From a virus, in the IMG/VR virus record IMGVR_UViG_3300034117_001582, positions 124,001 through 188,000 of that record: a DNA stretch of 64,000 nt; one strand, given 5' to 3'. Position numbers and translations under genes: made by a program. How positions within the stretch are numbered: position 1 is the first letter of the stretch; every line of letters starts with the position of its first letter. The notes beneath the pieces were generated by a model. That model saw only the letters and a program-made list of their open reading frames with translations. It was not told where the DNA came from and made no database searches. Shown here one piece after another: positions 41,090 to 45,880 of the stretch.

Positions 41090-43135
41090 ATGATAGATTC
41101 GGCGGACGGAACAGAAAAACCAAAAAACAAAAACCAAGACGGTTCAGGAAAAACACCAGTTTTAGATAACTTTTCAAGGGATTTAATTAAATTGGCGGAA
41201 GAAGGGAAATTAGATCCGGTTATTGGTCGTGAGGATGAAATAAATAGAATAGCTCAAATACTTTCAAGACGCAAGAAAAATAACCCAATTATTTTAGGTG
41301 AACCTGGTTGTGGTAAAACTGCAATTGTGGAAGGGTTGGCTAAGAAGATTTTTGAAGGTGATTGCCCACAAAATTTAGCAAATAAAAGAATTGTTTCTTT
41401 GGATATGACCTCAATTGTTGCGGGGACAAAATATCGCGGTCAATTTGAGGAAAGAATGAAAGTAATAATTGAAGAATTATACGCAAACCCTGATATCATT
41501 ATTTTCATAGATGAAATCCATACAATGATTGGTGCAGGTAATTCATCAGGATCTATGGATGCGTCAAACATATTCAAACCAGCACTTTCTCGTGGTGAAT
41601 TACAATGTATTGGAGCGACAACATTAGAAGAATATAGAAAGAACATTGAAAAGGACGGAGCATTAGAAAGACGTTTCCAAAAAGTGATTGTGGACCCATC
41701 AACAAAAGAAGAAACATTAATAATATTACAAAACTCAAAAGATAGGTACGAAAAACACCACAAAGTATCCTACAGTGATGATATTTTAAAACTATGTGTT
41801 GAGTTGGCGGATAGATATATTACCGATCGCGAATTCCCTGATAAAGCATTTGATATTATTGATGAGGTTGGTGCTCGTTCGCAGGTGGAAATTAAACTAC
41901 CTGAAATTATTGAGGATTTAAAAAAACAAGCACAACTAATTAAAGAAGAAAAGTTGGATGTGATTAACAAACAAAAATATGAGGAGGCTGCAAATCTTCG
42001 TGACAAAGAAAGAAAAATATTAGCCTATTTGGCAAAAGAAAAAGAAAACTTTGAAAATAATAGAGACCAAAATAAAAGGGTAGTAACCGAAGATGTTGTT
42101 TATGATGTTGTTTCGTTAATGACAAAAATACCAATTAACAAAATTACAAGCGATGAAACACAACAATTAATCACATTAAAAGAAACTTTATCGACTAAAG
42201 TTATTGGTCAAGAGGACGCGGTAGCAAAAATATCAAGATCTATCCAAAGAAATAAAGTAGGATTAAGTGACCCTAAAAAACCAATTTTTAGTGGTTTATT
42301 AATTGGTAATTCAGGTGTTGGTAAAACGGAATTAGCAAAACAATTGGCAAAACATATGTTTAATAGTGAAGATGCACTTATCAGATTAGATATGAGTGAA
42401 TTTTCAGATAAAATTGCGACATCAAAATTAACAGGTACCTCACCAGGTTATGTTGGATATGAAGATGGTTCACCATTCTTAAACAAAATTAAAAATAAAC
42501 CTTATTCAGTTATTCTTTTAGATGAGATTGAAAAGGCTCACCCTGAAATCTTTAACGTATTTTTACAAATGTTAGATGAAGGGTTTTTAACTGATGGTCA
42601 CGGAAGAAAAATCAACTTTAAAAATTGTATTATATTAATGACTTCTAATGTTGGTACTAGAGTCGTACAAGATTTTGGTACTGGCGTTGGTTTTACCACA
42701 AGTACAAAAATTGAAAGACGTGAGGATGAAATAAAATCAGTTTTAGAAAAAGAATTATTTAAAAAGTTTGCACCTGAATTTATAAATAGGTTTGATGACA
42801 TTGTATATTTCAAAGACTTAAACGAAGAAGACTTATTAAAAATTGTTGATTTGGAACTTAACAAATTCTATGAGAGAATTGGTCAATTAGAGTTTCAAGT
42901 TGAGGTTGACGATACTTTGAAAAAACACTTAACTGAAGTTGGTACTGACACTAGATTTGGGTCTCGTATTCTAAAACGTACCGTTCAAAAGTGGGTGGAT
43001 GATGCAATTACGGAAAAGATTTTAACTGATAATCCAGAAAAGGGATCAACTTTTATTCTAACATACAATGAAAAGGATAAAAAGACTGACGTTAAAATAA
43101 AAAAACCAACAAAAAGAAAAACAAAATCACAATAA
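41090..43135 (+). CDS. clpC: ClpC-like double AAA+ unfoldase lacking the N domain
   Basis: 681 residues. First AAA+ module: Walker A GEPGCGKT (70-77), Walker B IIIFIDE (D141, E142), GATTLEEY sensor. A short middle domain (about 265-325: KYEEAANLRDKERKI) is of the ClpC type, not the long ClpB type. Second module: GNSGVGKT (406-413), VILLDEIEKAHP, NRFDD. A VGF loop at 533-535 corresponds to the ClpP-docking loop of ClpA/ClpC. The roughly 140-residue adaptor-binding N domain is replaced by a 25-residue polar tail. Likely unfolds proteins for host ClpP, with altered substrate choice. It lies just before a peptidase gene and 2.3 kb from the tmRNA. Confidence 0.9.
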   Translation: MIDSADGTEKPKNKNQDGSGKTPVLDNFSRDLIKLAEEGKLDPVIGREDEINRIAQILSRRKKNNPIILGEPGCGKTAIVEGLAKKIFEGDCPQNLANKRIVSLDMTSIVAGTKYRGQFEERMKVIIEELYANPDIIIFIDEIHTMIGAGNSSGSMDASNIFKPALSRGELQCIGATTLEEYRKNIEKDGALERRFQKVIVDPSTKEETLIILQNSKDRYEKHHKVSYSDDILKLCVELADRYITDREFPDKAFDIIDEVGARSQVEIKLPEIIEDLKKQAQLIKEEKLDVINKQKYEEAANLRDKERKILAYLAKEKENFENNRDQNKRVVTEDVVYDVVSLMTKIPINKITSDETQQLITLKETLSTKVIGQEDAVAKISRSIQRNKVGLSDPKKPIFSGLLIGNSGVGKTELAKQLAKHMFNSEDALIRLDMSEFSDKIATSKLTGTSPGYVGYEDGSPFLNKIKNKPYSVILLDEIEKAHPEIFNVFLQMLDEGFLTDGHGRKINFKNCIILMTSNVGTRVVQDFGTGVGFTTSTKIERREDEIKSVLEKELFKKFAPEFINRFDDIVYFKDLNEEDLLKIVDLELNKFYERIGQLEFQVEVDDTLKKHLTEVGTDTRFGSRILKRTVQKWVDDAITEKILTDNPEKGSTFILTYNEKDKKTDVKIKKPTKRKTKSQ

Positions 43136-45429: not shown

Positions 45430-45849
45430 GGGGGTGTTTTTGGATTTGACAGGTATTGGCTGAAGACAAAGGGCACGTGGGGACTGAATTAATCTCCTTA
45501 AAAACTGATTCATTTTTACAGACGGCAACGTTTTGAACAACCTTGAGACTTTGGGACTTATCTCAACTCAAGAAGTTACTGTAGCTTAATTTAAGCACGG
45601 TAACGGGGGGTCGGTCAGACATATAACCTAGCAACAGAAGTCGTTGACGAGTTGGTTTTCACTCTAAAAGAAAACAGCGGTCTCGTTCAGAGGTCTACCG
45701 TAATAAAAGTGAACTCGACACAGTTATTGGTGACAATGTCAAAATAGGAACCAAATATTTCGGAAGGTATGACAAACCTTGACCTAAACGTGTAGTCCTT
45801 ATCTGACAGGATAGACTGGACCGGAGTTCGAAACTCCGCACCTCCACCA
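45430..45849 (+). ncRNA. ssrA: Transfer-messenger RNA (tmRNA)
   Basis: 420 nt. Rescues stalled ribosomes by acting as tRNA-Ala and then as message for a tag. 5' GGGGGUG pairs with 3' CACCUCC (one G-U), followed by A and an encoded CCA; the T arm is CGGAG-UUCGAAA-CUCCG; the 5' UUUUUGGAUUUGACAGG matches the tmRNA D-loop region. The tag frame most likely starts at GGC 45524 and ends with UAA 45587-45589: 21 codons beginning GNVLNN and ending QEVTVA, against about 9 in the host phylum (GENNYALAA type). The stop lies in a long hairpin (GUUAC...GUAAC, about 45575-45604), as in helix 5 of other tmRNAs. It fills the gap between 45364 and 45964. Confidence 0.92.
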
Positions 45850-45853
45850 TTTA

Positions 45854-45880
45854 AACCTCATCTTAGGATGGGGTTTTTTT
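45854..45880 (+). terminator. Intrinsic terminator of the tmRNA
   Basis: AACCTCATC / GATGGGGTT hairpin with TTAG loop, then seven T, starting 5 nt after the CCA end. Confidence 0.85.

Follow-up and report, generated by a model that had tools for sequence, protein, structure and literature searches.

What becomes of proteins tagged by a phage tmRNA whose tag does not end as host tags do? The question is raised by a gene at positions 45430-45849 of a 64,000-nucleotide stretch of viral DNA (hereafter the window), which a first-pass annotation had read as a tmRNA with an atypical tag. The window belongs to the 291,867-base record of a giant freshwater virus that encodes a T4-type head protein, a portal and a terminase, and the phage genome carries 8 tRNA genes. 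The host is likely a member of the Bacteroidota, because named-isolate relatives of the head protein include a Flavobacterium phage and the bacterial ClpC copies closest to the phage ClpC described below are those of Bacteroidota. A blastn search of INPHARED with the tmRNA gave no match, so no isolate relative was found. The features of the tmRNA region are as follows, all on the plus strand.

45430-45849, plus strand: one-piece tmRNA gene (ssrA) with encoded CCA, from a full-length RF00023 match of 95 bits and a G3:U70 pair
45518-45523, plus strand: putative upstream frame-setting element ACAGAC (purine at -6, pyrimidine at -5, A at -4), with A at -4 across the family
45524-45589, plus strand: tag frame GNVLNNLETLGLISTQEVTVA with stop TAA, opening at resume codon GGC at 45524 and kept in at least 139 viral loci
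45575-45604, plus strand: helix P5, in which the tag's final codons and its stop lie, from a fold of 45562-45602 with outer pairs added by eye
45853-45876, plus strand: intrinsic terminator-like hairpin followed by a T run

The gene is almost certainly a genuine tmRNA with a 21-residue tag. The RF00023 match spans exactly 45430-45849 (gathering score 47, E 9.4e-36) and covers model positions 1-374 of 374, comprising the tRNA-like and mRNA-like domains. The comparison with the Rfam tmRNA model had been set beforehand as a check, and the feared absence of any match did not materialize; the acceptor stem of 7 pairs, the encoded CCA and the terminator-like site likewise agree with the annotated completeness of the RNA at both ends. 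ARAGORN called no gene in the window, so the covariance model was needed to find it; the tmRNAs of relatives score between 45 and 136 bits against RF00023. None of the 110 complete copies tabulated departs from G3:U70, the alanine identity pair, and other pairs of the stem covary, as would be expected for a charged and translated tmRNA. No SmpB gene was found in the phage genome itself, so that of the host must serve.

The reading frame can be placed with similar assurance. Resume codon GGC occupies 45524-45526, preceded by A at -4 (45520) and C at -5 (45519), the former present in every family tag listed; in E. coli tmRNA the frame is set by U85 and A86, the equivalents of these -5 and -4 bases (PMC2481249). 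ARAGORN, applied to the relative L216, independently picked the same resume codon, with tag GNVINKLSAVGLIRAEEAVVA. These observations uphold the annotated GGC and its 21-codon frame, and the outcome that would have spoken against them, a resume codon elsewhere with a normal ALAA-type tag, did not arise. The stop TAA at 45587-45589 lies inside helix P5 (fold of 45562-45602: -9 kcal/mol, z -2.0).

Our principal new result is that this tag is not a single case; it defines a family. Searching IMG/VR for a pattern of the RNA's 5'-terminal 23 bases, a query independent of the tag, gave at least 119 stretches, and a search for ClpC added 80 further loci. Tags of this kind occur in at least 139 IMG/VR loci, although many of these are close relatives or overlap on one contig, so that independent cases number fewer than 139. 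The tags have 21 residues, a few 22, with consensus G[ND]V[LI]xK[ML]xxxGL...EV[TS]VA; the tag as read in L124 runs one residue beyond the usual tail. Across 42 distinct 63-base frames, G1, G11 and V20 are invariant, and V3, L12, V18 and A21 nearly so. For the same 42 frames pN/pS is 0.58 in frame and rises to 0.86 and 2.06 when the frame is shifted; the +1 frame of the tag region is always interrupted by stops. By itself this ratio would lend modest support to selection on the peptide, because substitutions at the variable positions mostly stay within a residue class; the constant number of codons, and the exchange of codons where the residue is conserved, argue for it more strongly. Moreover, the tag is retained even where the 5' end of the tmRNA has diverged: those found by way of ClpC differ at the 5' end (e.g. 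GGGGATGAATGGAATCGATTGGC) but encode GNVLDKMALLGLVKQDELVSVA. Taken as sequence evidence, these patterns make selection on the tag peptide highly probable.

They also bear on another account of the tag, in which ribosome release alone matters and the peptide is inherited baggage, owing its persistence to the structure of the RNA and to recent shared ancestry. Phage plaques on E. coli need ribosome release and neither the correct frame nor destruction of the peptide (PMC2481249), the last tag codons do lie inside P5, and many loci are closely related. We nonetheless regard this account as very improbable, since codon length is fixed, codons are swapped synonymously, the segment outside P5 is conserved as well, and the tag survives the divergence of the 5' end. 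As to the origin of the tag, one tag resembled a segment of HPr in the PDB (E 0.47), but a profile of 21 sequences matched nothing and the similarity was dismissed as chance; nothing convincing emerged for a tag copied from a protein of the same phage or for tag-like C termini among its proteins.

If the peptide matters, a reader of it may be sought among the neighbouring genes, three of which lie upstream of the tmRNA.

41090-43135, plus strand: ClpC-type AAA+ unfoldase with no N-domain and a VGF ClpP-docking loop, from Pfam, alignment to S. aureus ClpC and a survey of the loop
43185-44219, plus strand: M42/M20-type aminopeptidase, from Pfam PF05343 at 27.5 bits
44216-45364, minus strand: 382-aa protein divergent from the tmRNA, with an opposite-strand ORF of at least 300 aa in 105 of 105 loci

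The ClpC-like unfoldase had been annotated 2.3 kb away, and its gene does end about 2.3 kb upstream of the tmRNA. The protein aligns to residues 145-816 of S. aureus ClpC and has two AAA+ modules with Walker and pore-loop motifs, a minority of relatives deviating from the simple patterns used; by such pattern matching the Walker motifs are found in most phage copies, and the pore loops are kept. All 105 phage ClpC copies have a ClpP-docking loop of the form [VIM]GF (VGF, IGF or MGF). Bacterial ClpC (S. aureus 6em8 and that of Bacteroidota) is alike in its two AAA+ rings, pore loops and ClpP-docking loop, but the phage protein is missing the N-domain: its alignment begins at S. aureus residue 145, no Clp_N is among the matches listed, and only about 44 residues precede the IGR motif, as compared to about 210 in bacterial ClpC. 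ClpP is absent from the phage genome itself and present in 3 of 36 records (three relatives), so this phage and most of its relatives must use host ClpP. It would be reasonable for such an enzyme to read a tag directly, since mycobacterial ClpC1 from which the N-domain has been deleted still unfolds an ssrA-tagged protein (PMC6274998). In two relatives (G012:C1:54529-58253 and G018:C1:31850-35529) about 1.7 kb of DNA separates the two parts of the ClpC gene, the break falling near residues 64-74, at the first Walker A motif. At the ClpC split site in L180 there is no Rfam intron match; a group I intron match of 92.7 bits lies at L180:10531-10783, downstream of the ClpC and tmRNA region.

ClpC lies 1.9-5.6 kb upstream of the tmRNA on the same strand in 105 of 105 loci with enough upstream DNA; the 34 loci without it each extend no more than about 3 kb upstream. 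When whole records were searched, ClpC was present in 34 of 36, including every one with the window tag family; the exceptions, G017 and G026, bear other tags. The aminopeptidase is likewise present in 104 of 104 relatives compared, on the opposite strand in the distant ones. The other gene between ClpC and the tmRNA encodes a fast-evolving protein (382 aa in the window), whose AlphaFold model (pLDDT 89) has no fold match in the PDB or BFVD and which is a candidate Clp adaptor. We considered this synteny as proof of a functional module and set it aside, because in distant relatives the genes upstream of ClpC are equally syntenic (36/37, 34/34 and 29/30) and because the aminopeptidase switches strand; position alone thus does not prove a shared pathway. 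Genes downstream of the tmRNA vary among relatives. Nor do the sequences suggest tight coevolution, in that near-identical tags co-occur with ClpC proteins only about 60% alike. In five relatives (L034, L084, L075, L095 and L207) the giant structured RNA GOLLD is found about 0.4-1.6 kb from the tmRNA (312-332 bits); the Rfam scan found none in the 64-kb window.

With the RNA, its frame, its peptide-level conservation, the anatomy of ClpC and the gene neighbourhood as observed, we infer a link between tag and unfoldase from position and anatomy. Our tentative preference, at somewhat less than an even chance, is for a degron whose main reader is the phage ClpC, acting on ClpP. The host would charge the phage tmRNA with alanine through G3:U70, and with host SmpB the RNA would enter stalled ribosomes during infection and add the 21-residue tag, either beside the host ssrA or in its place. 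The tag may then serve as a two-part, phage-specific degron, made of the conserved inner GNVLxKMxxLGL and a degenerate ssrA-like tail, EVTVA. Its most probable reader would be the phage ClpC, which has no adaptor-binding N-domain and keeps its pore and ClpP-docking loops; this enzyme would thread tagged chains into host ClpP, and the adjoining aminopeptidase could take the resulting peptides down to amino acids. Recognition by ClpC is supported by its adjoining the tmRNA, by its ClpP loop, by the behaviour of truncated ClpC1 (PMC6274998) and by the ClpP genes of three relatives.

The tail of the tag is relevant to two other fates. In E. coli at 37 °C, LacI decays with a half-life of about 13 min when it ends in LVA and of about 8 min when it ends in LAA (PMC3511798); since the tag ends in Val-Ala and LVA is still a degron there, the VA end appears compatible with degradation, and survival of tagged proteins seems the less likely fate. 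Of the two fates that the first-pass annotation had drawn from the different tail, survival thus loses ground, and handling by ClpC gains it from the conservation of the tag and the anatomy of the enzyme. The same half-life would suit an ordinary degron, recognized through its Val-Ala end by host ClpXP (or Lon or FtsH) and supplementing host trans-translation, with the phage ClpC otherwise employed, e.g. in disaggregation. The tag of Bacillus phage G (AKLNITNNELQVA) also ends in VA, the tags of a second phage family described next mostly end in [LVM]AA, and ClpC is syntenic with the tmRNA only in a general way. Yet such a degron leaves the conservation of about 15 residues upstream of the tail unexplained, and we consider it unlikely.

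Long tags with conserved inner motifs exist in at least two phage groups. The tags of G017 and L076 contain EDMMSIPTSITR or EDIMSIPTSLTR, and a pattern for the motif EDMMSIPTS[IL]T (also EDIMSIPTS) retrieved 23 viral loci. The motif is seen in L069, L076, L459-L479 and L451, the last being the 735-kb huge phage LR756501, in which the motif falls within a weak tmRNA match. Tags of this second family that can be read whole have about 26-35 residues and usually end in [LVM]AA, sometimes in ELV. Both families are long, phage-borne and built around a conserved inner motif, yet they have no residues in common, and the tail of the window family is EVTVA, adjoined by ClpC. No ClpC of the window type was found in the 8 second-family records, by a search that had no internal positive control; LR756501 does encode a Clp-type ATPase. 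That the group without an LAA tail is the group beside ClpC is suggestive and no proof, being in effect a comparison of two clades. Other long candidate tags are GVNNADYESAGFTAEDFAQMDGESLYHGSERKPAAV, DNVNSFEQSILNELFAPVEMAVAA and AEAVANCNSDSRIYKTGTVVETEAFELVA, in L443 (LR756508), L445 (LR756504) and L027.

Two tag families with long inner motifs unlike any host tag also invite a different reading, in which the tag is an address label and no degron: rescued chains would be sent to a phage receptor or compartment, or protected, e.g. through the 382-aa neighbour or another factor. A protein without a fold match does lie beside the tmRNA in every informative locus. We think this rather improbable, as the tail still resembles a functional degron end, an unfoldase with a ClpP loop adjoins, and the tag has no similarity to proteins of its own phage or to solved structures.

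Returning to the preferred ClpC-read degron, the virus may steer rescued proteins to a virus-encoded handler. Phage tmRNA tags have received little attention in the literature that we found, and a peptide-conserved tag family, together with an adjoining unfoldase that keeps its ClpP-docking loop and has no adaptor domain, offers a testable case for viral replacement of a host quality-control label. It is possible, if doubtful, that trans-translation has been rewired in large phages on more than one occasion, with GNVLxKMxxLGL and EDMMSIPTS[IL]T as address labels for phage-controlled receptors that bring the proteins of stalled ribosomes to a viral destination. If the virus does put its own label in place of that of the host, an address code would be added to trans-translation, the tmRNAs of huge phages would gain a function beyond ribosome rescue, and an orthogonal degron/unfoldase pair could be put to use in bacteria.

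Phage tmRNAs are already known (PMC4131195, PMC7162821, PMC9004378), and recycling of amino acids through phage tagging has been proposed (PMC9004378); conserved long tags specific to phages were not described in the open-access literature that we searched, subscription journals and the tmRNA Website being outside that scope. ARAGORN, the tmRNA annotation tool of the huge-phage (PMC7162821) and Melnitz (PMC9004378) papers, misses or mis-tags several of the RNAs described here, which may be why such tags had gone unreported. The tmRNAs of those phages and of mycobacteriophages (PMC4131195) are likewise phage-borne, with tags of other sequence; that of Melnitz is two-piece (PMC9004378), as compared to the one-piece tmRNA of the window. 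In the huge phages LR756508 (L449) and LR756511 (L450), which also have a full tmRNA, tmRNA-model matches of 112 and 137 bases resemble the tRNA-like domain alone (cf. DS6A in PMC4131195). A second, weaker tmRNA copy (49 bits) was seen in a Bacteroidota genome (L414, G166:C1:772761-773172), with a normal GENNYALAA tag and degraded-looking 5' and 3' ends.

Bacteroidota chromosomal tmRNA (RF00023; tags such as GENNYALAA, GNYDYALAA and GESNYAMAA) is alike in being one-piece, with A at -4, a stop in P5 and a Gly resume codon, often followed by Asn; the phage tags share the Gly start of many sampled Bacteroidota tags and sometimes the Asn at position 2. Those Bacteroidota tags that could be read have 9-10 residues and end in ALAA, AMAA or RLAA, which bears out the annotated contrast with host tags of about nine residues ending in ALAA: the phage tag departs from the canonical form (9-10 residues, [LM]AA end) in its 21 residues, its new inner segment and its EVTVA end. 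The tag of Bacillus phage G is closer in kind, being also phage-borne, longer, non-LAA and VA-ending, with a different sequence.
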